The position numbers and the translations under genes were made by a program. Below the pieces are notes generated by a model. That model saw only the letters and a list, made by a program, of their open reading frames with translations, made no database searches and had not been told where the DNA came from. Shown piece after piece: positions 3,592 through 29,353 of a stretch of DNA of 64,000 bases (position 1 is the stretch's first letter; every line of letters begins with the position of its first letter). The stretch comes from Thermoplasmatota archaeon (lineage in GTDB: Archaea; Thermoplasmatota; Thermoplasmata; Thermoplasmatales; Thermoplasmataceae). Location of the stretch: NCBI GenBank assembly GCA_023487205.1, contig JAMDBT010000027.1, forward strand, positions 1-64,000, read 5' to 3'.

Positions 3592-5145
3592 TCATTGGAA
3601 GCCAAACACGGGATCTGATACCAGCCTGTTCAGGGACAACTTTCCTTCCGGCAACAGTGAAGTGAAATCCGTTCCAATGCCATGATGATGTGAAAGTGAC
3701 CCGCCATGTTCAACGAACCCCCCGGCAAGTGATTTTCGGAGTTCCAGCAAATCGCCGGATCGGATCGACTTAGCAGGCCCCAGAACAAAGGTGAAATAAA
3801 TAGCCGCTCCAGTTCTGTACAGATGAGAGAGATGTGCCATTATGATCCCCCTGATTCCCAGGCTATGGCATTTCCTGTAAAATTCCTTAACGGTGCTTTC
3901 ATAAAGGCCATGAAGGTTTCCCCACTCTGCTGAAGTTTCAATGGTATCGGGAACCAAGCCCATTCGCCAAAGGCTGTTTCCTATCTCCGGCCGTCCGAAC
4001 CTTTCCTTCTCCCACTGCCTTGCAATTCGTGGCCCGGTGCGTATCCCGGAAGGAATTCTTTTCCACGATTTGTGATCGTTGGATATCACGATCATCAGGG
4101 ACCCTGAATCTCTCCCGATTCCACGGAAGTTCAGCCATGACCTGAGAATCTTCTTGCCCGTGCTCTCGGGTGCCAGCCCGAACATGAATCTGGTTTCTGT
4201 CTCGTCCGAGAGGCGGACAACCGCAGGATGTGTCCCTGTGGAAGAAAGGAATTCAATGCCGTCACGGAAGTGCCTGAAGAAATAGCTGGAATAATAACGC
4301 TTCCCGGGAAGAGGGCTTGCCTTGAGCGTTACCTCACCAATAATCCCGGTCCGTCCCTCCCCGCCGAGCGCCAGGGACTTTCCTGAAATGCCCGTAGACT
4401 CCCTCGGAAGGCCGGAATCCTTCAAATGGAAATCTGACCTGTAAAGATCCACCCCAAGGACTATGCTTTCTATGTCTCCATAGAAATTGGACTCCTGCCC
4501 GGATGCCATGGTCGAGACCCATCCGCCCACTGTGGAATCTGGCATAGACTCGGGAAAGTGCCCACATGTCAATTGTTTCAGATTCAGGAAGTTCTCAAGA
4601 TCAAGACCTTTTACCCCTGGACCGCACCTGACGGTATAGCCATCGATGCTGATGCTGTCAAGATTTGACATGTCAAGAGCTACGGTCAGGCGTCCGCTGT
4701 CTCTCTTGAAGCCTCCGACGACACCGGTCCCTCCTCCCCTGATAATTGCCCGGATATCGTTATCCCTCAACTTTCTTGGCAAGTCACCGAGATCTGCAGC
4801 AGAAGGTTTTGCAACGGCTTTCACGAAGAATTTCCCCTCACTCTCCCGTGCTTCAAGCACCTCCACTGATGACCTGCCAATTGACGCCATGAAAGTGTCT
4901 TTTGCGTCATAGGAAGTAACAATTCCCCTGAGCACCGTTTCCAGCTTGAGTCTCTCATCCTCTGAAATATCTACAATAGGAACGCCTACCGTCCCGTCCC
5001 AGTTCTCGTACGAATTCAGGTCTCCGAAGTTGACTGACAGAATTGATTTCAGCCGTGACTCCGTTTCAGCACTCGCCTGCTTTCCGATCAGGTTTACCCG
5101 CTCGTTCTTCTCCCTCCGTCCCTGAAACTTGTTCGCAGCAATCAC
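3592..5145 (-). CDS. FAD-linked oxidase, alkyldihydroxyacetonephosphate-synthase/GlcD-like
   Basis: A 517-residue flavoprotein of the FAD-binding type 4 (VAO/PCMH) fold. The FAD pyrophosphate loop IIRGGGTGVVGGF is near residue 140, and GHFPESMPDSTVGGWVST is the second FAD-contacting stretch. The C-terminal HHHGIG motif is typical of alkyl-DHAP synthase-like and D-lactate/glycolate dehydrogenase-like members. Archaeal members have unclear substrates; an ether-lipid role should not be assumed. It lies 18 nt after proS on the same strand. The N-terminal 16 residues are basic and poorly conserved in appearance, so the true start could be further in. Confidence 0.8.
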   Translation of the reverse strand: MIAANKFQGRREKNERVNLIGKQASAETESRLKSILSVNFGDLNSYENWDGTVGVPIVDISEDERLKLETVLRGIVTSYDAKDTFMASIGRSSVEVLEARESEGKFFVKAVAKPSAADLGDLPRKLRDNDIRAIIRGGGTGVVGGFKRDSGRLTVALDMSNLDSISIDGYTVRCGPGVKGLDLENFLNLKQLTCGHFPESMPDSTVGGWVSTMASGQESNFYGDIESIVLGVDLYRSDFHLKDSGLPRESTGISGKSLALGGEGRTGIIGEVTLKASPLPGKRYYSSYFFRHFRDGIEFLSSTGTHPAVVRLSDETETRFMFGLAPESTGKKILRSWLNFRGIGRDSGSLMIVISNDHKSWKRIPSGIRTGPRIARQWEKERFGRPEIGNSLWRMGLVPDTIETSAEWGNLHGLYESTVKEFYRKCHSLGIRGIIMAHLSHLYRTGAAIYFTFVLGPAKSIRSGDLLELRKSLAGGFVEHGGSLSHHHGIGTDFTSLLPEGKLSLNRLVSDPVFGFQ

Positions 5146-5163
5146 CCTTAAGCCAAAGGAGGA

Positions 5164-6561
5164 TCAATAGGTCCTGCTGAATGTAGCGAGTCTCCCTTCC
5201 TTGCCGCACACAACACAATTTCCCGCCGATTCCACGTCTATCCTGTAGCCCAGGCAAACCTTTTCTGATTTTTCCTCGATGTGATCAGAACATTCCCTCA
5301 ACCCGCACCAGTAGGAAAGGCTTGGCCCTTTCCAGGCAATGAGGTCGTTCAGCCCTGCGGCTTCCTTTATGATTTTCTTCATCTGCTTGACGGCCTTGTC
5401 AGTAATGATTTCCTTGACACGCCTCAGGGAATCACGCACTGAATCCTCCAGATCCTTCAATCCGACGGTCTTCTTCCCCTTCTCAACCCTCATTGCAATT
5501 GTCGCGGTATTTGCTGCAACCTCTCTTTCACCCACTTCAATCCTTACCGGGACTCCCCTCATCTCCCAATCGTTGTACTTGTAACCCGGGGTGTAGGAGT
5601 CCCTGCTATCCACCCTTGCCCTGATCCCCTTGGATGACAGGATCTTTTCCAGGTTCATCGAGTATTTCAGCGTATCACTTTTCTCGGATGGAATTGGTAT
5701 GATGATGACCTGAGTGGGTGCAAGGTCAGGAGGCAATATCAGGCCCTTGTCGTCGCCGTGAATTCCCACCAGTGCTCCAATTAAGCGCGAACTCATTCCG
5801 TACGTCGTCTGGTGTACGTATTCTTTTTCACCGGCTTCGTTTACGTAAGTTATGTCATAAGGTTTAGAGAAATTGGTCCCATACTGGTGAAATGTTGCGA
5901 CCTGAAGTGATCTGTTAGACGGGAGGAATGTGTCTGCTGCATTGCTGTATTCGGCACCTGCAAACTTATCCCATTCCGGTCTACGATGCAGCACGTATGG
6001 AACGCACAGTATATCGGACAGCGATTTCCAGATGTCAAGATACTCTACAATTTCTGCTTCTGCTTCCTGATAATTTCTATGTGCGGTATGGGCTTCGAAA
6101 AATCGAAATTCCCGGTCCCTGAGAAACGGCCTGGTATGCTTGGTTTCGTACCTGTAAACGCTCACAAGTTGGTATAATTTCAGTGGAAGATCCCCGTGGG
6201 TCCGGATCCACATGGCAAACATCGGATACATTGCGGATTCACTGGTTGGCCTCAACGACATTTCCTCGTCCAGCTTGTCTGTTCCTCCTTTGGTGATCCA
6301 AAATACCTGTTTTTCAAATCCCTTAAGGTGTTCGAATTCAACGTTGAGCTGCTTCCTGGTTATCAAGAGCGGAAAGGAAACCTCGTTCAAACCCTTTGCG
6401 TCGCAGAGGCGCCTCACGTTCTCATCGAAATTCAGTGCAACCTTGAGACCGTAGGGCATCCAGATGTTCATGCCCTTGATTGGGTACCTCTTATCGATAA
6501 GACCCGCAGACTCGACGATCTCGTTGTACCATTCGCTGAAATTTTCCTTCTTGTTTTCCAT
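5164..6561 (-). CDS. proS: prolyl-tRNA synthetase, archaeal type
   Basis: A 465-residue class IIa aminoacyl-tRNA synthetase, the usual length of the short archaeal/eukaryotic-type ProRS without the bacterial editing insert. Motif 2 is visible as VYRYETKHTRPFLRDREF, followed by FFEAHTAH. The GMSSRLIGALVGIHGDDKGL segment is motif 3, leading into the anticodon-binding domain (PTQVIIIPIP). The C-terminal zinc-binding part carries two cysteine pairs. It charges tRNA-Pro in the cytoplasm. An AT-rich TATTTTAT element lies about 20 nt upstream of the ATG, which suggests a leaderless transcript. Confidence 0.96.
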   Translation of the reverse strand: MENKKENFSEWYNEIVESAGLIDKRYPIKGMNIWMPYGLKVALNFDENVRRLCDAKGLNEVSFPLLITRKQLNVEFEHLKGFEKQVFWITKGGTDKLDEEMSLRPTSESAMYPMFAMWIRTHGDLPLKLYQLVSVYRYETKHTRPFLRDREFRFFEAHTAHRNYQEAEAEIVEYLDIWKSLSDILCVPYVLHRRPEWDKFAGAEYSNAADTFLPSNRSLQVATFHQYGTNFSKPYDITYVNEAGEKEYVHQTTYGMSSRLIGALVGIHGDDKGLILPPDLAPTQVIIIPIPSEKSDTLKYSMNLEKILSSKGIRARVDSRDSYTPGYKYNDWEMRGVPVRIEVGEREVAANTATIAMRVEKGKKTVGLKDLEDSVRDSLRRVKEIITDKAVKQMKKIIKEAAGLNDLIAWKGPSLSYWCGLRECSDHIEEKSEKVCLGYRIDVESAGNCVVCGKEGRLATFSRTY

Positions 6562-6799: not shown

Positions 6800-9175
6800 C
6801 TAATTTCGGGGCAATGATGCAATTCTTCCATAGACTTCCAGGTACTCTAACCCCTTGGCAACACCCGAGGAAATGTCTCCTCCGTTTACCTTCTCCAGAA
6901 GAGACCTCATTCCCGACGGATTCTTAAGGCCTAGGAAAGGAACTGTTACTTCGACAAATTCTGCCACATATACGGTGTTTGCCCACACCTTTCGGAATGC
7001 TTCCAGTTCTTCCTCGTACTTGTCAAGGAAGTGATCCCTGAGCTTTGGGTTCATTGCCAGGGCGTAAAACAAGTAAACAGTATCCTGCTTCCTGACCCTT
7101 CCATCTTTGGTCATTTCCAGTGCCTTTTCCATACTCTCCTTAGACTGGACCCATCCAAGTGCGCTCACTGATTTGACCCTGTCCTCCTCTATGGCTAATG
7201 AAGCCATCTTGTTCCCAATGGTAACCGGATCGTCTTTCATTCTTGCATAGGAAAGTAGAATCGCACGCCTTACGTTTGGATCTTGATTTTCCAGTTCGTC
7301 CAATTTAAGGGACATCTGACGTGCATAATCGTCATCCAGCCTGGCAAGTGCAGTGGTGGCGTCTTCCCTCACCATTCCAAGCGTAGGCTCTTCACCCACT
7401 TTCCGGTCCCCTATTCTTGCCAATTTCTCTTTTAGATATGATATTGCAAACTGTTTGAGACCCGCGTCTGACACCCGTATAAGTGAAAGGGAGCCAAGCT
7501 GCTGTACAAAAGCCCTGATTACAAGCGACTCGTCAGAAACTGCAAAAAGTTTGATCCTATCAAAATATTGGCCGTAACTGATGACTCCAGACTGGAGGAA
7601 CGCGTAAGTGTCATTAGCTACCCCCCATGAGTCCATTCTGCTGAGCATGGACAGGTTATTGGCAATGTTCCTGTACATCTTCTCTTCGTACAGAACTCTA
7701 TAGAATCCACTCTGCTGCCAGTTCAACTTCACGAAGTCTTTACTGTTGATGCGCATTTCATTGCCTTCGAAGAGAAAAGATTCTACCCCACTTTTTCTTA
7801 CAACAGTGACGGGTATGGGCCAGGTCTGCTGGTAGTCTATCCCTTCGTAAGTGTACCTTCCTTGTTTCAGCACAAGTTGATCTCCCTCAGCGGTGACTTC
7901 GATTATAGGATACCCGGGAGTATTCACCCAGTAGTCTATCATCCTGTCTAAGTCCTTCCCGCAAGCCTTGGTTATACTCTTCCAAAGGTCAGATCCACTG
8001 GCGTTGGAGTAGGAGAATCGCTTAAGATAGTCCGATACACCCCTGCGGAAATTGTCCGTTCCAACATATCCCTCTATCATTCTCAGAATCGCTCCACCTT
8101 TACCATAGCTTATTTCATCGAAAACCTGCATTATTTCTTCCGGAGTCTTCAGGTTTGTATGGACAGGATGAGTATTCTTCAGCGAATCACCTCTAAGTCC
8201 TCGGCTATACATATCCAGTAAGAAATCATCCCATTCGTGAAAGTCCGGATAAACGAAGTCTGCCACTTTATAACCCATCAGTTCAGCAAAGCTTTCGTTC
8301 AGCCAGATGTCGTCCCACCATTTCATCGTTACAAGATCGCCGAACCACTGGTGTGCTATTTCATGGCCTATGGTCATGGTCACCCTGCCTTTCAGGTAAC
8401 TCGAAGTGGAATCATCGAGAAACAGGACAACGTTCCTGAATGTAATCGCACCCCAATTTTCCATCGCGCCAAATGCAAACTCGGGCACTCCAACGAGGTG
8501 CATTTTAGGCAACGGATATTTGACGCCGAAATAGTCCTCAAAAAATTCCGTTGTCTTAGCAGCAACTTCCAGCGCCATGTCCGAGGACGATATCGTGCCC
8601 CTCGGTCCTGCCAGAACAAAATCTCTTCCCTTGCTGACAATCTTCCTGCTTTCAAAGTCTGCCACCCCGATATACAGGAGGTAGGTGGACATAACCGGAG
8701 TATCGAGAAATTCGTAAGTCTTTAACGTACCTTCTTCCCGTATGTTCTTAGGCGAAGAATTGGAAATCACTTGGTTAGGATCGGCGACTTTCACGGACAA
8801 TCCAAAAACAGCCTTGTAAGCTGGTTCATCTTTGCAGGGAAATACCATCCTGGCTCCAGTTGATTCGAACTGGGTAGTGATCATCCTGCCGCCCTTTGAG
8901 TCAGCGTAATACATTCCGGTGAGCGTCTTTCCGACGTTACCAGAAAATGTGATTTCGATATTCTTGGACATTGATTTGTTTTCTATTTTCAATTTGTTGT
9001 TTTCTACCTTGAACTGGAGTCTAACACCGGATGCTGTGACAGACTTATAGTCCAGCCCTACTGAATCCAGGACAATTTCATTTTCGGTTTCAGAAAAAGT
9101 GATTCTCTCCTTGCCGGTATAGCTGAGATTACTGTTCGTCAAATCAAGAAAAATGTCGTATCTCTCAATTTTCAT
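6800..9175 (-). CDS. M1 family aminopeptidase, tricorn-interacting factor F2/F3 type
   Basis: A 791-residue zinc aminopeptidase. The exopeptidase motif GAMENWG precedes the zinc site HEIAH (H271, E272, H275), with the third ligand E294 in NESFAE, spaced as in the M1 family. The length and overall order (beta saddle, thermolysin-like catalytic domain, small beta domain, C-terminal helical domain) fit the tricorn-interacting aminopeptidases of Thermoplasma, which trim peptides released by the proteasome and tricorn protease to free amino acids. F2 and F3 differ in specificity and cannot be told apart here. A TTAAATAA element about 25 nt upstream of the ATG suggests a leaderless message. Confidence 0.93.
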   Translation of the reverse strand: MKIERYDIFLDLTNSNLSYTGKERITFSETENEIVLDSVGLDYKSVTASGVRLQFKVENNKLKIENKSMSKNIEITFSGNVGKTLTGMYYADSKGGRMITTQFESTGARMVFPCKDEPAYKAVFGLSVKVADPNQVISNSSPKNIREEGTLKTYEFLDTPVMSTYLLYIGVADFESRKIVSKGRDFVLAGPRGTISSSDMALEVAAKTTEFFEDYFGVKYPLPKMHLVGVPEFAFGAMENWGAITFRNVVLFLDDSTSSYLKGRVTMTIGHEIAHQWFGDLVTMKWWDDIWLNESFAELMGYKVADFVYPDFHEWDDFLLDMYSRGLRGDSLKNTHPVHTNLKTPEEIMQVFDEISYGKGGAILRMIEGYVGTDNFRRGVSDYLKRFSYSNASGSDLWKSITKACGKDLDRMIDYWVNTPGYPIIEVTAEGDQLVLKQGRYTYEGIDYQQTWPIPVTVVRKSGVESFLFEGNEMRINSKDFVKLNWQQSGFYRVLYEEKMYRNIANNLSMLSRMDSWGVANDTYAFLQSGVISYGQYFDRIKLFAVSDESLVIRAFVQQLGSLSLIRVSDAGLKQFAISYLKEKLARIGDRKVGEEPTLGMVREDATTALARLDDDYARQMSLKLDELENQDPNVRRAILLSYARMKDDPVTIGNKMASLAIEEDRVKSVSALGWVQSKESMEKALEMTKDGRVRKQDTVYLFYALAMNPKLRDHFLDKYEEELEAFRKVWANTVYVAEFVEVTVPFLGLKNPSGMRSLLEKVNGGDISSGVAKGLEYLEVYGRIASLPRN

Positions 9176-9265
9176 GGACAGTGAAAGGGTAGAAATTATT
9201 TAACTTAACTCCACAACGGCTTGCTCTAGGCACAATAGACCGCAGGTACTAAGAAGCATCTCAGA

Positions 9266-9316
9266 ATGAAAAATGCATTACCATGTCACAGTTGCGAATT
9301 TGGAATACATACCTAA
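9266..9316 (+). CDS. possible 16-residue peptide ORF with a CxxC pair (very tentative)
   Basis: ATG at 9266 opens a 16-codon frame (MKNALPCHSCEFGIHT). It is listed only because it lies 420 nt upstream of a ThiF/PqqD gene and has two cysteines, so it could be a modified peptide. No clear TATA box or ribosome-binding site precedes it and such short frames occur by chance. The rest of 9180-9414 shows no gene. Confidence 0.12.
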   Translation: MKNALPCHSCEFGIHT

Positions 9317-9414
9317 AAACCGAAAAAAAATGATTTGCCTGACACACCTGTGAATGCTTCATATTGTCACCTATTTGGTGGACCGGATAGAACTCAGCCT
9401 GTAAACGCCGCAGG

Positions 9415-9662
9415 ATGAATGCGAACATTCATGCGTAATATTGTTATTGTTTAAGCAATGACGGAGGCCCTCCAAGTGCGATTATATCCTAAAGAGGATC
9501 AGGAGGTTCTTCTTGAAAAGCAATTTGGTTCATGTAGATGGGTAAGGAATCATTTTCTTGAAATCAGAACGAAATACTAATCCGAGCACAAGAATGACAA
9601 GAGAAAAGGCCTCACCGCATTCGATACCATGAAGATGCTCACCAGCATTAAGAAGGAGGTAA
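9415..9662 (+). pseudogene. tnpB 5' fragment with left-end-like hairpin (IS605-type relic)
   Basis: ATG at 9458 begins a frame with the typical TnpB N-terminus (MTEALQVRLYPKEDQEVLL, then FGSCRWVRNHFLE). It stops at TAA 9578-9580, but the same frame continues beyond the stop with TnpB-like sequence (LTAFDTMKMLTSIKKE) to about 9662, where similarity ends. Just upstream, 9415-9432 forms a 7-bp perfect hairpin (ATGAATG, loop CGAA, CATTCAT), as expected of a left end. The remaining four fifths of the gene are gone and the ThiF gene follows at once. Confidence 0.8.
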
Positions 9663-9707
9663 CAGTCGGTACAGATGAGACGACTGCAGAACCGTACCGG
9701 TCACGGT

Positions 9708-9716
9708 ATTATATTC
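9708..9716 (+). promoter_or_regulatory. TATA box for ThiF/M50 operon
   Basis: ATTATATTC is centred about 24-26 nt upstream of the tandem ATGs at 9735 and 9738. This supports a leaderless start there instead of the in-frame ATG at 9675, which would lie upstream of the promoter and inside tnpB debris. Confidence 0.5.
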
Positions 9717-9737
9717 GGTATACGTCTCACGGTAATG

Positions 9738-10862
9738 ATGAGCAAGGCCATCACTATTCCGAAGATCAGAGGACCATATTATAACCCGCGGCTGACTAAA
9801 GATAAGACAATCAGATTTGGAACTCAATATCCGCTTGAGATGGAGATTAATGACTCCAGGAACGGAGAAATCTGGAAAATTCTTGGATTGATCGATGGAA
9901 AGCGGACCACTCTCGAAATCATTGGAGAGCTGGAAGGGGAAATTAAGGACGCCAATGAATTGACACTAAACCTTATCGAAAATCTCTCGCGTCAGGGGAT
10001 CGTGTATGATGCCAACTCAAAAGAAACTACTGAGGGACTTACTCCAGCAGAAATACAAAGGTATGCCAGGAACACACGTTATTTCTCCTGGATAATGCCC
10101 AATGATCGAGAGTTCAACTATTCCCCTCAAGTCAAGTTGAAGCATGCGAAGGTGACGGTACTCGGGGTTGGAGGATTGGGTTCATCTGTTGCCGCAAGTC
10201 TTGTTGCAACGGGTGTTGGCAACATTCACCTGCTTGATTACGATAAAGTTGAAAGCTCAAATTTGAACCGGCAGGTATTGTACTCAGAGGAAGACGTTGG
10301 AAAATCGAAAGTCGTTGTGGCATATGAAAAACTGAGCAAATTGAACTCTTCAGTCCATATTACCTATGAAGAGCGAAAGATTAGTGGGGTTGGTGACTTC
10401 GTTGAGCTTCTTGGCAGTACTGATATCCTAGTCCTGGGCGCGGACAAGCCAGAAGCGATTGGAATTTGGTGCAGCGATGCTGCACTTCAGGTAGGCACCC
10501 CCTGGATCTCTGGAGGATATTTTGGCCCTAAGTTCATCTGTGAAGGCTTTATCCCGCACGAGACGGGCTGCTTGGAGTGTTACACTATCGGTCTTATGAA
10601 TAATCAGTCCGAGGTAGTAATAGACCTTCGTGACGAAAACTACAACGCGTCCATTGCACCCACTTCTACGATTTCAGCTCAGCTCGTGGCGTTGGATGTG
10701 ATTCATTACTTGATTGGCTTCAGGACACAATTCTTTGGAAGGAGATACATTGCCAACGCGCTATCGGTAGACCTGTCTCTATTTCAGGATATAAAGAAAG
10801 TCCCTTCCTGTCCCAAATGTGGAGAGTCTGGATTGTTCAGTAAACGGAGAGGTCGGGTATAG
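9738..10862 (+). CDS. PqqD-like domain fused to ThiF/HesA (E1-like) adenylyltransferase; putative RiPP enzyme
   Basis: About 374 residues. Residues 25-95 resemble a PqqD-like/RiPP-recognition winged helix (a DSRNGEIWKILGLIDGKRT stretch followed by two helices). From about residue 120 it is a ThiF-type fold: nucleotide loop VLGVGGLGSS, then LLDYDKVESSNLNRQ, and a zinc site of two pairs, C278/C281 and C358/C361. ThiF-like enzymes adenylate a peptide or protein C-terminus; those with a PqqD-like N-terminus occur in peptide-modification pathways such as TOMM and microcin C7-like systems. No sulfur-carrier protein gene is nearby, which argues against a plain thiamin or MoCo role. The next gene, an M50 peptidase, starts 4 nt after the stop. 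The start follows the TATA box at 9708. Confidence 0.8.
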   Translation: MSKAITIPKIRGPYYNPRLTKDKTIRFGTQYPLEMEINDSRNGEIWKILGLIDGKRTTLEIIGELEGEIKDANELTLNLIENLSRQGIVYDANSKETTEGLTPAEIQRYARNTRYFSWIMPNDREFNYSPQVKLKHAKVTVLGVGGLGSSVAASLVATGVGNIHLLDYDKVESSNLNRQVLYSEEDVGKSKVVVAYEKLSKLNSSVHITYEERKISGVGDFVELLGSTDILVLGADKPEAIGIWCSDAALQVGTPWISGGYFGPKFICEGFIPHETGCLECYTIGLMNNQSEVVIDLRDENYNASIAPTSTISAQLVALDVIHYLIGFRTQFFGRRYIANALSVDLSLFQDIKKVPSCPKCGESGLFSKRRGRV

Positions 10863-10866
10863 CTTA

Positions 10867-12084
10867 ATGGACCAGATACAGCCAGGCAGCAGACTAAAAT
10901 TCCGTAAACTTGAGATGAGGAAGGAGAAACTGGGTTTAGTGGTAGGCGTAAAGGAGACCGGCGAATTCATCTCTCTCGACAGTCTGGGAGAGTATACTCT
11001 CAGGTTGTTGATGGATGGGCTAAGCGTGGGCGAAACAGAAACTGCACTAAGTGCCCAGGGTCACGAAGCTAACGTCAGGAGCTTTGTGAGCAGCATCAAG
11101 GATCTTGGGTTTGCTGAGATTTCGGATTCCACAAACGGGGGAAATGCAGACTGGGACGTCAGGTCAGAGAACGAACTCGGCGCTCATAGGCTTCCCTTTC
11201 TAGTAATACTGATCGCATGGATTATTTTCATTTCGTATGCCGTTTCAAGAATAGTCTATAATCCGACTATAATGTACTCTGCCATTGGTTCACTGTGGAA
11301 ACTGAATTTTGTGGTATTTTACCTCCTAATTTACGCTATCTTCTTCCTTGACGGCATGATTCACGAGAGTTTTCACTATCTGACCGCAAAGCTCTTTGGG
11401 GTTCCAGCAAAGATCGGCTTGAGTGTCAGGTTATTTGAACCAGTGCTTCAGACCGATTTGCATTCTCTCTGGGGAGTCAACAAGAAGAAGAGATACATAG
11501 TTCTACTATCTGGACTAATGTGGGATTCCTTTGCCCTCTCCCTATTCATACTTGCAAGGAGTTATTTTCAATTGAGCCCAATAATAAACACAATTCTCAG
11601 CGGTTTCATTTTTCTGAACATTATGGTGATCATATCTGAATTCTTTTTTTTCACGAGAACAGACGTCTATTTTGTTGTGGAGACGGCCCTGGACTGTAGC
11701 AATCTTAGGGGGGATTCGATGAATTATCAGAAATTCGTATGGAGGAATATTTTCAGAAAGTTCCAAGGAAGCAACCAGAAACCCCCGTTATCAAACCCCC
11801 TGAAGGACCTGTCGTCCAGAGAAGAATCGATTGTAAGGACATACAGCTGGTTTATGATCTTGTCTTCGGTGATTGTCATCGTATTCGGATATCTCATTTC
11901 TTTCTGGGGGGTAGTGGGCATTTTAATTGGCACCTTCCAGCAACTAATCATTGGAATATTGATTCGGAATAGTTTTGACCTCATAATTGGAGCTGCCGGA
12001 TCTGGAATTTTTCTATTTAACATCGCTTTTCCAATCTACTTCTATCTCAAACAGTGGAAAAGAACCAAGTCCCTGGTGAATTGA
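10867..12084 (+). CDS. M50-family (S2P-like) membrane metallopeptidase with PqqD-like N-terminal domain
   Basis: A 405-residue membrane protein. Residues 25-95 look like a second PqqD-like winged helix. About six or seven hydrophobic segments follow from residue 113. The zinc motif HESFH (H166, E167, H170) lies in a membrane segment after an FLDGMI lead-in, and RTDVYFVVETALDCSNLR looks like the second active-site segment (DxYF...NL) of M50B peptidases found beside modified-peptide genes (YydH-like). It would cleave or help export a peptide at the membrane. An in-frame ATG at 10819 lies inside the upstream gene; ATG 10867, with GGAGAGGT about 10 nt before it, is preferred. The TGA stop is formed by the edge of the downstream IS relic, so the native C-terminus may have been altered. 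Confidence 0.75.
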   Translation: MDQIQPGSRLKFRKLEMRKEKLGLVVGVKETGEFISLDSLGEYTLRLLMDGLSVGETETALSAQGHEANVRSFVSSIKDLGFAEISDSTNGGNADWDVRSENELGAHRLPFLVILIAWIIFISYAVSRIVYNPTIMYSAIGSLWKLNFVVFYLLIYAIFFLDGMIHESFHYLTAKLFGVPAKIGLSVRLFEPVLQTDLHSLWGVNKKKRYIVLLSGLMWDSFALSLFILARSYFQLSPIINTILSGFIFLNIMVIISEFFFFTRTDVYFVVETALDCSNLRGDSMNYQKFVWRNIFRKFQGSNQKPPLSNPLKDLSSREESIVRTYSWFMILSSVIVIVFGYLISFWGVVGILIGTFQQLIIGILIRNSFDLIIGAAGSGIFLFNIAFPIYFYLKQWKRTKSLVN

Positions 12085-12490
12085 CATCCTCCCACGACTA
12101 ATGTCATGGGCTTCCTGCTTTTCCGGCCGGAGTTGCCCCTGCGGGTAGCGCTCCAATCTCCACTGGCGTATATTTGGGGGTACCCATCCCCTGCACATTC
12201 ATACATTCAAAGACAAGGAAAGTGCAGTTCCTGGCCGGATCGGTGGAACGTTTGTGGGCAAGAACTTTTCTCTGCCTTTGCGAGGAGATGCGTTATGCCG
12301 GGATCCGGTACTCTCCACGCGCCCTTCAGCAATACTCTCCTGAACCGTGAATGATGCAGACCAAACACCTACCCGATCCCCTGACAATGGTGAGTGCTTT
12401 GATCGTGCAGTCCATCCTGCGGTGCATGAACATTCTTGCGGCTCCGATCTTGGAAAGTTCCAGATGACCGTTCTCCAGAACCTCAAAACC
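12081..12490 (-). pseudogene. decayed tnpB with right-end hairpin (IS605-type relic)
   Basis: On the minus strand the sequence first reads like the middle of TnpB (a run ending RMFMHRRMDCTIKALTIVRG), then meets stops and frameshifts, and resumes as the C-terminal tail (GTPKYTPVEIGALPAGATP) ending at TGA 12106-12104. The right-end hairpin CCCACGAC/GTCATGGG is at 12091-12110, and the element boundary touches the stop codon of the M50 gene. Much of the gene is deleted, including the RuvC and zinc-finger parts, so it cannot make an active nuclease. Confidence 0.85.
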
Positions 12491-12496
12491 GACCGC

Positions 12497-12567
12497 AGAT
12501 AAGCAATCGATGTGAAAAAAAGAAGAAAAAATTACTACTCTACCCTAAAAACAGACATTGCTTATCT
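12497..12567. repeat. 11-bp perfect inverted repeat around a poly-A/T tract
   Basis: AGATAAGCAAT at 12497-12507 is matched exactly in reverse complement at 12557-12567. The 49 nt between contain an A-rich tract (12514-12532), which is T-rich on the minus strand. The right arm overlaps the stop codon of the small minus-strand ORF at 12562. It could be a transcription end for that ORF, or the two ends of a small mobile fragment. Confidence 0.55.
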
Positions 12568-12654
12568 AGGAACGCCAGATCCGCTGTAACCCGTTATCAT
12601 CGTTGCCTCAATCTTTTCCAATTTCCTGATCTTTATTTCATCCAAGCATTTCAC
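12562..12654 (-). CDS. possible 30-residue peptide (candidate RiPP precursor)
   Basis: GTG at 12654 opens a 30-codon frame ending at TAA 12562-12564. The N-terminal two thirds are charged (K, E, R, with LDEIKIRKLEKIEA) and the tail is small and polar (TGYSGSGVPR), the general look of leader plus core. A TATA-like element (CATATTTAAG, 12684-12693) sits about 35 nt upstream. That predicts a leader of about 9 nt that includes GGGAGG. A U-rich tract follows the stop, so it forms a complete small transcription unit 0.5 kb from the ThiF/M50 pair but on the opposite strand. The frame is short and could be chance; the link to the enzymes is inference. Confidence 0.35.
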   Translation of the reverse strand: MKCLDEIKIRKLEKIEATMITGYSGSGVPR

Positions 12655-12710
12655 CTCCCGCTGAAGAGATGAGGGGTCACGTACTTAAATATGCCGCACG
12701 ACTTTAAGGT

Positions 12711-12794
12711 ACATATATAAGGCTTTCCTGAGGAATTATGACTAACCACCGTACTCTCTATTCCTATTATACACGTTCGGGAGAAACTACTTGA
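12711..12794 (+). promoter_or_regulatory. TATA box and possible 18-codon leaderless ORF
   Basis: ACATATATAA (12711-12720) is a good TATA box pointing rightward. An ATG at 12738, at leaderless distance, opens an 18-codon frame (MTNHRTLYSYYTRSGETT) ending at 12794. The promoter may instead serve a longer transcript that includes the M20 peptidase gene at 12983. Together with the TATA box at 12684-12693 it makes a back-to-back promoter pair. Confidence 0.3.
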
Positions 12795-12840
12795 ACTGTA
12801 CCGTTGTGTAAAGGTTGAACGCATACACCTCCATTAAAAA

Positions 12841-13005
12841 ATGCCAGCAGGTGCATTTCAGAACCCGCTACTGCTCAGGAAACAACCTTCTTTGAGACCT
12901 ACTACCAAAGGTATTCAAAGGATTGTCGCGCAGGGTGTAATTTGGAAGAAACCAATAATAGAAACGCCACACTTAAGGCACTATGCCACAACTGTCTGTG
13001 GATCA
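12841..13005 (+). pseudogene. possible tyrosine-recombinase (XerA-like) fragment
   Basis: One short frame reads TTKGIQRIVAQ, then KKPIIETPHLRHYATT. This resembles the stretch of Xer/phage-type integrases ending in the HxxR box (TPHxLRHxxAT), with one residue lost between His and Arg. Nothing else of an integrase, such as the catalytic Tyr, is present, and the segment overlaps the start of the M20 peptidase gene in another frame. The likeness is suggestive, not secure. Confidence 0.35.
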
Positions 13006-14182
13006 GAAACTGGAGCTGATTAGGGAACTGTATACATGGATGATTCCAATAAAGGCTATCGCGCCCTCTTCCGGTGGCGATGGGGAGAAAGCGAGAGCGG
13101 ATTTCATTTGTGATACGCTAGAATCAATGGGATACAATGATTTCCAGAGAGTCGATATTATTGATGGTGACGGCAAGACAAGATCTAATGTGATACTGAA
13201 GGTGGGAAATTTCCAGAAAACCGTTTGGTTTGTTTCTCACATCGACACTGTCCCTGAGGGGAGTGCTGAATTGTGGAAGTACCCTCCTTTCCAGGCAGTT
13301 GTTGAGGGAAACAGAATTTATGGGCGTGGAACGGGAGATGACGGGCATGCTGTAGTCTTGTCTCTGTTGCTCCTCAAGGATCTGGACAGGCAGCGACTGA
13401 AGTACAATGTGGGCCTTGCATTCTGCGCAGACGAGGAACTGGGAAGCAAGTATGGAATACAGGCGCTTCTGGAAAAGCCTATATTTGGGAAGGACGATAT
13501 CATAATTGTGCCTGATTATGGCACGGAGTCTGGGCTAATCATGGAAGTGGCAGAAAAGAGCATTCTCTGGTTCAAGGTCACAATTCATGGAAAACAGTTT
13601 CACGCAAGCAGGCCCGAGGAGGCGGTAAATTCCTCGCGGGAAGGGATGAAGTTCATTCTGGAACTGGATGAACTACTCCACCAGAAGTATAATGCAAGAA
13701 ACAGCGTGTTCGAACCGGACGTTTCGACATTCGAGCCCACCAAGCACGAGGCAAACGTAGCCAACATCAATACCATTCCGGGACTGGATGTCTATTACGT
13801 GGACTGCAGGGTTCTCCCTCAGTATGATCTGGATGAGGTTCTCTCAACGGTTAACCGCCTGGCAAGGCAATTTGAGGCTAGGAGTAGAGCTACTATTGAG
13901 ATCGGCATAGTCCAGAAGGAACAGTCCGTACCAGGCACCGATCCATCGACTGAGGTTGTTACAAAGCTCTCGAGATCCATTGAAAAGGTGAAGATGAAGA
14001 AACCAACTCCGGTGGGGATAGGCGGCGGAACTTGTGCCCAGTACTTCAGAATGAAGGGAATTCCTGCCGTGGCGTGGATGACTGCAGTGGATGAAGTATT
14101 TCACCAACCCAACGAGTACGTAGTCGTGGATTACATACTCTCAGACCTTGAAATACTGGAGGACTTAATCTACAATCAGTGA
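12983..14182 (+). CDS. M20-family zinc peptidase/deacylase (ArgE/DapE-like)
   Basis: A 399-residue binuclear zinc hydrolase. The first metal His and catalytic Asp are in FVSHIDTVPEG, the bridging Asp in GRGTGDDGHAV, the catalytic Glu pair in CADEELGSKYG, a further ligand in VPDYGTES, and the last His in VFHQPNEYV. The dimerisation domain sits in the middle (KVTIHGKQFHASRPEEAVNS). Family members remove acyl groups from, or cleave, short peptides and amino acids, and the exact substrate is unclear. AATAATAG lies about 26 nt upstream of the ATG as a likely TATA box. It may be unrelated to the modified-peptide genes to its left. Confidence 0.88.
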   Translation: MPQLSVDQKLELIRELYTWMIPIKAIAPSSGGDGEKARADFICDTLESMGYNDFQRVDIIDGDGKTRSNVILKVGNFQKTVWFVSHIDTVPEGSAELWKYPPFQAVVEGNRIYGRGTGDDGHAVVLSLLLLKDLDRQRLKYNVGLAFCADEELGSKYGIQALLEKPIFGKDDIIIVPDYGTESGLIMEVAEKSILWFKVTIHGKQFHASRPEEAVNSSREGMKFILELDELLHQKYNARNSVFEPDVSTFEPTKHEANVANINTIPGLDVYYVDCRVLPQYDLDEVLSTVNRLARQFEARSRATIEIGIVQKEQSVPGTDPSTEVVTKLSRSIEKVKMKKPTPVGIGGGTCAQYFRMKGIPAVAWMTAVDEVFHQPNEYVVVDYILSDLEILEDLIYNQ

Positions 14183-28925: not shown

Positions 28926-28993
28926 TGGTATTTCCTGCTGGAATTCCCTGGCGATGGCAAACTGAAACGTTACGAAGGCAATCTGCTTCCTGT

Positions 28994-29260
28994 GACCTCC
29001 TCCCACGACTAAAGCCGCGGGCTTCCTGCTTCAGCGACTGCTGGCGGAGTCTCCACAGGCGTGAATTCCCCTCGGTCCGAAGGTACTCTGTCCTCCATGC
29101 TAAGCCACCTGACTTTACGGATGCAGGCACGCATGGAGCAATATGCGATCCGACCTCTTTCACTTCTGTCTGCCAGCGGACAGAAATTACATCCAATAAC
29201 GACTTAAAACGGTTCGCTTTCATCCCACCCATAAATGGTGTGGGATTTCCCGCTCGGAAA
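28994..29260 (-). pseudogene. tnpB 3' relic with right-end hairpin
   Basis: On the minus strand a frame ending at TAG 29011-29009 reads GEFTPVETPPAVAEAGSPRL, the TnpB tail. The right-end hairpin (CCCACGAC with a partly decayed GCCGCGGG arm) is at 29002-29022. A second hairpin-like segment, CCCACCC...GGTGTGGGA at 29225-29247, resembles another type of IS605 right end, so two elements may have been nested. The 28926-29353 interval holds no other gene. Confidence 0.75.
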
Positions 29261-29353
29261 TGTTAAGGTTGAAATTCAGAACAGTGTGAGCAGAAAGTTC
29301 AGATAATGGTTCGAAGACCGGAAGAATATAAATAAAGGAGGGAGTCTGGAAGA

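Follow-up and report, generated by a model that had tools for sequence, protein, structure and literature searches.

A two-enzyme cassette in a genome of the Thermoplasmataceae (Thermoplasmatota archaeon, GenBank assembly GCA_023487205.1) most probably encodes a minimal pathway for a ribosomally synthesized and post-translationally modified peptide (RiPP). It lies in positions 1 to 64,000 of contig JAMDBT010000027.1, the stretch analysed here and called the window. P0001 (9735..10862, plus strand, 375 aa) is a ThiF/E1-like adenylyltransferase fused to a RiPP recognition element (RRE), P0002 (10867..12084, plus strand, 405 aa) is a putative RRE-fused HExxH membrane peptidase of the M50 type, and an open reading frame (ORF) past P0002 on the opposite strand (12562..12654) is predicted to encode a precursor peptide of 27-30 aa. 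The genes, their domains, the leader family, the conserved co-occurrence, the core variability and the insertion were all computed. That the locus is a RiPP pathway is close to certain, and the whole explanation, with proposed leader binding, C-terminal adenylation and leader cleavage, has a probability of about 0.88. A sequence-only reading of this region had already placed the enzyme pair in a modified-peptide pathway rather than in thiamin or molybdopterin synthesis. This placement is upheld by relatives of the pair that recur with peptide precursors and not with ThiS/MoaD carriers; that case was incomplete without a substrate, as neither the precursor ORF nor a second cassette of the same genome had been noted. 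The result is a compact, previously unannotated two-enzyme system of the Thermoplasmatales with a likely substrate.

Two enzymes with predicted leader-binding domains

Both genes are real, but coding begins at 9735 or 9738 and not at 9708, where the sequence-only reading had started its interval. Position 9708 belongs to the promoter, a TATA-like element (TATTATATTCGG, 9700..9720, plus strand, read by eye) about 25 nt 5' of the P0001 start, in which the box reads TTATATT; this spacing suggests a leaderless transcript. P0001 is composed of an RRE (~1-100) and an E1 domain (~127-360). Pfam ThiF matches it at 8.3e-46, and the GxGGxG loop, the SNLxRQ stretch, the GK/RxK stretch and CxxC...CxxC (C279/C282/C359/C362) are conserved in its paralogue and orthologue, in agreement with the nucleotide loop and four-cysteine site described earlier. 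The closest relatives are MccB/PaaA and unannotated actinobacterial homologues. Among solved structures in the PDB, MccB is the best overall sequence match to the P0001 profile (P0001, its paralogue and its orthologue), and PaaA is also among the best. R179, K192 and D237 align with MccB, and their spacing is identical to that of R167, K180 and D225, which EnfB requires (PMC12250964). In plasmid records the top matches of P0001 are among the E1s of the bacterial loci described below (33-37%), followed by E. coli MccB (31.8%). A single clade of module E1s has weak support (84/86).

The N-termini of P0001 and P0002 are RRE/PqqD-like. They had been called PqqD-like before, and this is supported, though not by the Pfam model of that family: Pfam PqqD (PF05402) has no match in the whole genome at E<=0.001, and on the E1 homologue of a related cassette, G448, it reaches 19.4 of 23.4 bits. 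The P0001 profile aligns without a break to PaaA 4-229, across RRE and E1 (138 bits). With hhalign, P0001-type N-termini against 20 archaeal PqqDs gave 96%, and the P0002 N-terminus against archaeal PqqDs only 49%. The AlphaFold2 (AF2) model of P0002 1-86 has the order beta-beta-beta-beta-alpha-alpha-alpha-beta, the RRE topology, at a predicted local distance difference test score (pLDDT) of ~53-76 per block. Its top Foldseek matches in the PDB are nearly all RiPP RREs (lasso B1/TbiB1 with leader peptides, ThcOx, PbtF, PqqD, MccB and SuiB), with modest E-values (0.016 upward) and, for the best ones, high Foldseek probability.

Following the RRE (1-86), P0002 carries the HESFH motif at residues 166-170 and RTDVYF with T265-D266. 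The earlier description of an HExxH membrane peptidase with this second motif agrees with our alignments, where H166, E167, H170 and D266, the last a candidate zinc ligand, are invariant across three homologues. P0002 is mostly helical beyond residue 100 in the AF2 model, and its C-terminal part looks membrane-type. The daptide_HExxH model matches P0002 at 1.6e-8 (34.1 bits against a curated cut-off of 300), and judged from such matches its affinity is to daptide and epipeptide (EpeP-type) intramembrane proteases. The profile check of the catalytic parts called for earlier gives a ThiF-like P0001 and an M50-like P0002.

The predicted precursor gene and its relatives

The window precursor reads (V)KCLDEIKIRKLEKIEAT-MITGYSGSGVPR, with a leader ending at about ...EAT and a core of about MITGYSGSGVPR that contains no D or E and ends in ...VPR. 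A GTG start at 12654 would give MKCLDEIKIRKLEKIEATMITGYSGSGVPR (30 aa), and a TTG start at 12645 would give MDEIKIRKLEKIEAT-MITGYSGSGVPR (27 aa). TTG/CTG may be the true start, because GGAGGTGA sits 4-5 nt 5' of TTG/CTG in the window (5 nt before TTG) and in the C31, G077, G138 and G129 copies. Upstream lies a TATA-like promoter element (CATATTTAAGTACG, 12676..12695, minus strand, read by eye), identical in the copy on contig C31. This ORF is very probably a substrate of the cassette. Such a start codon, together with the small size of these genes, may be the reason that they escape annotation, and NCBIfam gave no good match for any of nine peptides checked. ORFs just upstream of P0001 either lack the leader motif or are part of a TnpB relic (PF12323), and a repeat search around the window, G077 and G448 cassettes found no tandem precursors.

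A second complete cassette is present in the same genome on contig C13, with an E1 34% and an M50 30% identical to those of the window. The C13 E1 gene is directly preceded by three tandem mini-ORFs (L006 7418-7507, 7639-7731 and 7863-7952) that share one identical leader, MAKKIAISIRPAEKWETT, and have cores that are all different (FYITEMPFDAK, IFITNMNGVDVK and YYITPLIEDCK). Every mini-ORF comes with a TATA-like box of its own and is followed by a stem-loop. The stem-loops are nearly identical (GGGAGnTnTTAnCTCCC), and the first two are trailed by a T-rich stretch; perhaps they are terminators or a shared RNA element. In Thermoplasmata archaeon YP2.bin70 (G077), orthologous enzymes 59-64% identical are accompanied by a related peptide, MIYLEEIKIRNLEKFEATIFSGPPLNIDCPR, at the same place as the window precursor. 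The window, C31, G077 and C13 precursors have I-x-I-R-x-x-E-K-x-E-x-T in common, and the overall leader motif is [IV]x[IV]Rx(L/A)(E/D)(K/R)xE(T/A)T. All six Thermoplasmatales cores end in K/R, five of them as part of a C-terminal D-x-(P)-K/R pattern.

The module extends, on sequence grounds, beyond the archaeal group to Actinomycetota and, in a divergent form, to Bacillota. A tblastn search of plasmid records with P0002 recovered full-length relatives in Actinomycetota (23-27% identity) and a partial one in Priestia. A P0001-homologous 'ThiF family adenylyltransferase' is adjacent or 1-2 genes off in 11 of the 12 bacterial loci inspected, and nine of the 12 carry an unannotated ORF with the leader motif, for example MSMKKKKLEVKIRKLEKIETTINRGGASG in Nonomuraea; one Streptomyces has two in tandem. 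A single identical peptide is shared by four of the nine loci (L095, L096, L098 and L099), which hence are not independent. Four of seven bacterial cores are without D or E (L090, L091, L092a and L093), namely one Nonomuraea core (INRGGASG), those of Nocardia and Actinacidiphila, and one from Streptomyces. Since soil bacteria have the same module with the same leader motif, it appears to be a route to modified peptides that spans both domains. The earlier remark that this archaeal group has few known clusters of the kind holds for the literature searched, where none is described, but the module itself is far wider. The leader motif makes pairs annotated as 'ThiF adenylyltransferase + hypothetical protein' searchable for missed peptides.

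The leader family stands out from chance ORFs in several searches. A five-peptide profile run on 117 genomes of the order gave E<=5e-13 only in the two genomes that carry the enzymes (next 0.0097). With a nine-peptide profile, five of 380 genomes of the phylum match, all with related M50 genes; all five belong to the training set, so that this search shows only that the other sampled genomes have no precursor. A bacteria-only profile, built from precursors beside ThiF-M50 pairs of Streptomyces, Nocardia, Actinacidiphila and Nonomuraea, placed the window ORF at the top of the 2327 six-frame segments of the 64 kb (E 1.3e-6, against 0.33 for the next one). With the same profile, the C31, G077, G448 and C13 peptides led a set of 3200 archaeal segments. 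The bacterial peptides were initially chosen with the archaeal motif, which makes the two sets independent in sequence and not in selection. A scan for the strict motif gave a single occurrence in the window and none in 60 shuffles. A DNA-pattern search of genome contigs found only the G077 locus, probably owing to its strict patterns, and searches of viral contigs and phages gave no matches.

Some relatives differ in composition. The G448 cassette has a major facilitator superfamily (MFS) transporter (L023 5616-6929, minus strand), a candidate exporter, between its M50 gene and its precursor (RKLVVQFRKLERIETSDITGPRNMGGIS, ~5124-5260, minus strand). Another Thermoplasmatota genome encodes a more divergent E1-M50 pair (L027 5601-8265), for which a precursor was not found; its M50 matches daptide_HExxH (2.7e-45) and YydH/LiaK (2.9e-10). 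Radical S-adenosylmethionine (SAM)/SPASM-RRE-M50 triple fusions of ~830-850 aa occur in other Thermoplasmatota (L024 4191-6692, minus strand; L025 498-3062, plus strand), and possibly represent a second archaeal RiPP type; immediately upstream of each is a mini-ORF whose leader reads LETI(D/E)xKWLEKLEM. The likeness of this leader is a lead towards common recognition by the M50 RRE and no proof of it, as profiles trained without these peptides detect them unconvincingly. On a Priestia koreensis plasmid (L094 2982-3267), three identical tandem mini-ORFs (MKSMKKIVVRKLATVTVPQLRPGT) are followed by genes for ThiF, an ABC substrate-binding protein, M50 and MFS, and their leader resembles the enterofaecin (V/I)RKA motif. 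A Macrococcus armenti plasmid (L103) carries a cluster of ThiF, arginase family, isochorismatase family and M50 genes, which suggests extra tailoring in some relatives.

Insertion of the cassette and possible mobility of the precursor

The cassette is an insertion (9176..12982) that is missing from two same-genus genomes. The flanking genes for an aminopeptidase (6800-9175) and an M20 peptidase (12983-14182) are only ~80-90 bp apart there, and the synteny of ProRS, aminopeptidase, M20 and NMNAT is otherwise preserved in both. With these two sister genomes compared, a gain in this lineage is a more economical account than a pair of losses, in line with the acquisition suggested by the sequence-only reading. 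The GC content is 44.5% in the cassette and 48.5% in the window. The flanking IS605-type relics that had been reported are also present. Upstream is an IS605 OrfB/TnpB N-terminus relic (9458..9580, plus strand; PF12323 at 9458-9577, 2.9e-12). Downstream is an insertion sequence (IS)-derived block (12082..12732, minus strand), which aligns in pieces, at 85-92% identity, with part of an IS200/IS605-type element on contig C31. The block encloses the precursor gene and TnpB-relic-like sequence, and an element end abuts the P0002 stop.

The C31 element (L048 8476-9786) encloses an orphan precursor with a divergent core, positioned between an intact-looking TnpA (PF01797, 4.7e-35) and TnpB-relic-like DNA, and no maturation enzyme was found in the 16 kb around it. 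The window and C31 precursors differ at 1/54 nt in the leader and at 9/39 nt in the core, against 85-92% identity in the relic DNA that flanks them, which indicates that the leader is held while the core changes. Sequence matching the ends of the C31 element recurs in the window at 28992-29266. From this recurrence and the position of the C31 precursor within its element, the precursor is plausibly cargo of an IS200/IS605-type element, and carriage by IS605 offers a possible route for the spread and diversification of cores. The ~275 bp element at 28992-29266, both ends of which match the C31 IS element, looks non-autonomous and resembles a miniature inverted-repeat transposable element.

Proposed mechanism, alternatives and known systems

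From these results we infer leader binding, the order of steps, the chemistry, cleavage, export and a possible biological role as signal or antagonist. The RREs of P0001 and P0002 would bind the leader motif of the precursor. P0001 would then adenylate a precursor carboxylate with ATP; as in MccB and EnfB, this would most probably be the one at the C-terminal end of the variable core. Capture of the adenylate by a peptide nucleophile should lead to net loss of water and probably to a ring or C-terminal lactam. P0002 would cut the leader from the core at the membrane and help to release a product of ~10-13 residues. Precursor copies multiply and their cores diverge by tandem duplication on C13 and inside an IS200/IS605-type element on C31. 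Among RRE-ThiF enzymes, MccB and EnfB activate the C-terminal carboxylate, and PaaA and GrcB a Glu side chain. The C-terminal carboxylate is the only candidate common to all precursors because the window core and four of seven bacterial cores have no D or E; action of P0001 on this group is favoured, though with some reserve. Because P0002 stands close to the daptide/EpeP-type intramembrane proteases, its most likely role is to remove the leader in a step coupled to release, and we regard it as a probable leader peptidase. We also considered a C-terminal Lys/Arg-lactam product, given the K/R ends of the Thermoplasmatales cores, and set it aside as speculative because relatives elsewhere do not share these ends.

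It is scarcely credible that P0001 is a housekeeping or sulfur-carrier E1 of the ThiF/MoeB/UbaA type acting on ThiS/MoaD/SAMP-like proteins, with P0002 as an unrelated site-2-type protease. The E1 domain does score 1e-34 to 1e-23 against ThiF, MoeB and UbaA models, yet it stays far under the curated NCBIfam cut-offs (e.g. 116.6 against 275 bits), bears an RRE and finds its best PDB matches in MccB and PaaA. The genome encodes a separate E1 on contig C28, and its ThiS-family genes are elsewhere (C25:108742 and C7:2770), which agrees with the earlier statement that no ThiS/MoaD-type carrier is nearby. Most of the order lacks the partner gene, sister genomes have an empty site, and the E1-M50 pair recurs with peptide precursors. 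Very improbable, too, is a precursor-like ORF that is a chance frame or an IS605 piece such as a TnpB start, the real substrate being elsewhere. Its place inside an IS-derived block and its lack of an ATG start would fit such an origin; however, a related peptide occupies the equivalent position in G077, where no intervening IS sequence was seen, the TnpB N-terminus (PF12323) differs from it in sequence, and the bacteria-only profile and the shuffles single out this ORF.

Two other explanations retain the RiPP module and change one step. Activation of an Asp/Glu side chain by P0001, forming a PaaA- or GrcB-like lactam or thiolactone, is unlikely, although the nearest continuous RRE+E1 match is PaaA, a Glu side-chain enzyme, and D-x-(P)-K/R ends most Thermoplasmatales precursors. 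The absence of any acidic residue from MITGYSGSGVPR and from the four acid-free bacterial cores stands against it. Less probable still is a P0002 that trims the C-terminus or destroys the peptide. The M50 proteases TglG/TmoG of the pearlin pathways remove C-terminal residues from a carrier peptide (PMC10885120), but the cores here are ~7-13 residues long and vary as whole units, and the affinity of P0002 is to the daptide/EpeP type; cleavage and export of the product are the functions proposed for EpeP (PMC10885120).

Several observations weigh against the preferred pathway of leader binding, C-terminal adenylation and leader cleavage. Most archaeal ThiF-linked cores except that of the window contain D or E, and under a side-chain route the window copy could be inactive because its core has neither. 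The precursor beside the cassette is embedded in IS-relic sequence and could be decaying, and its start is GTG or TTG (TTG or CTG in some relatives). Pfam M50 scores 14.7 of 27.2 bits on P0002, below its cut-off, and an AF2 model of P0001 from a two-sequence alignment was discarded at pLDDT 42.6. No exporter, immunity or regulator gene lies beside the archaeal cassettes, the MFS gene of G448 excepted, and the leaders of the radical-SAM-linked relatives are caught by a loose motif only and not by the profile.

More tentatively, the locus may belong to a distinct, undescribed RiPP class found in Archaea as well as Bacteria. Its hallmarks would be the E1(RRE)-M50(RRE) pair and an IxIRxLEKxETT leader, its products C-terminally cyclised short peptides, and its Thermoplasmatales precursors would be mobile and diversify as IS200/IS605-type cargo. 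If this were true, archaea would gain mobile, fast-evolving peptide signals or antagonists. The locus also offers a paralogous control cassette, natural core variants and expressible bacterial relatives. No E1-M50 module with this leader is described in the open-access literature searched, preprints being outside its scope. The RRE/ThiF RiPP review and mining papers searched mention no archaeal example: the word 'archaea' is absent from the main texts of PMC12250964, PMC7470986 and PMC12710340. In PMC12144867 the products characterised from archaea are lanthipeptides of haloarchaea.

Compared with known systems, the locus resembles enterofaecin (PMC12250964) in having an RRE fused to a ThiF-like adenylyltransferase with the same R/K/D catalytic spacing as EnfB, and a short precursor, that of enterofaecin being 21 aa long with an N-terminal (V/I)RKA leader motif and an activated C-terminal carboxylate. 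It differs in its leader (I-x-I-R-x-L-E-K-x-E-(T/A)-T), the absence of a WWIVI core, its archaeal host and an RRE-M50 partner where enterofaecin has four transporters. MccB shares with P0001 the E1 fold, an N-terminal peptide clamp/RRE and matching cysteine pairs; however, MccB modifies a C-terminal Asn in microcin C, whereas the window core ends in Arg and those of relatives in K, R, S, A, G or V, and the locus has no microcin C neighbour genes. PaaA, with its continuous alignment across RRE and E1, converts Glu-Glu core residues in pantocin, but the window core has no Glu pair, and PaaB/PaaC were not seen. GrcB, of the GRC-type thiolactone RiPPs, is likewise an RRE + ThiF enzyme and drives ring closure, in a system that differs from this locus by its radical SAM enzymes and conserved core Cys. 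No daptide modification enzymes were recognised among the ORFs at the locus, and no radical SAM gene of the epipeptide kind among those around the cassette. The ThiF pairs of Streptomyces, Nocardia, Nonomuraea and Actinacidiphila have the same two enzymes, aligned over their full length, and the same leader motif; they differ in their cores, which often contain Cys, and are annotated, if at all, as ThiF adenylyltransferase with a hypothetical or site-2 protease family protein. As far as sequence can tell, these comparisons support a new variant of the RRE-ThiF ('TLAT') RiPPs, distinct from microcin C, pantocin, daptide and epipeptide systems.

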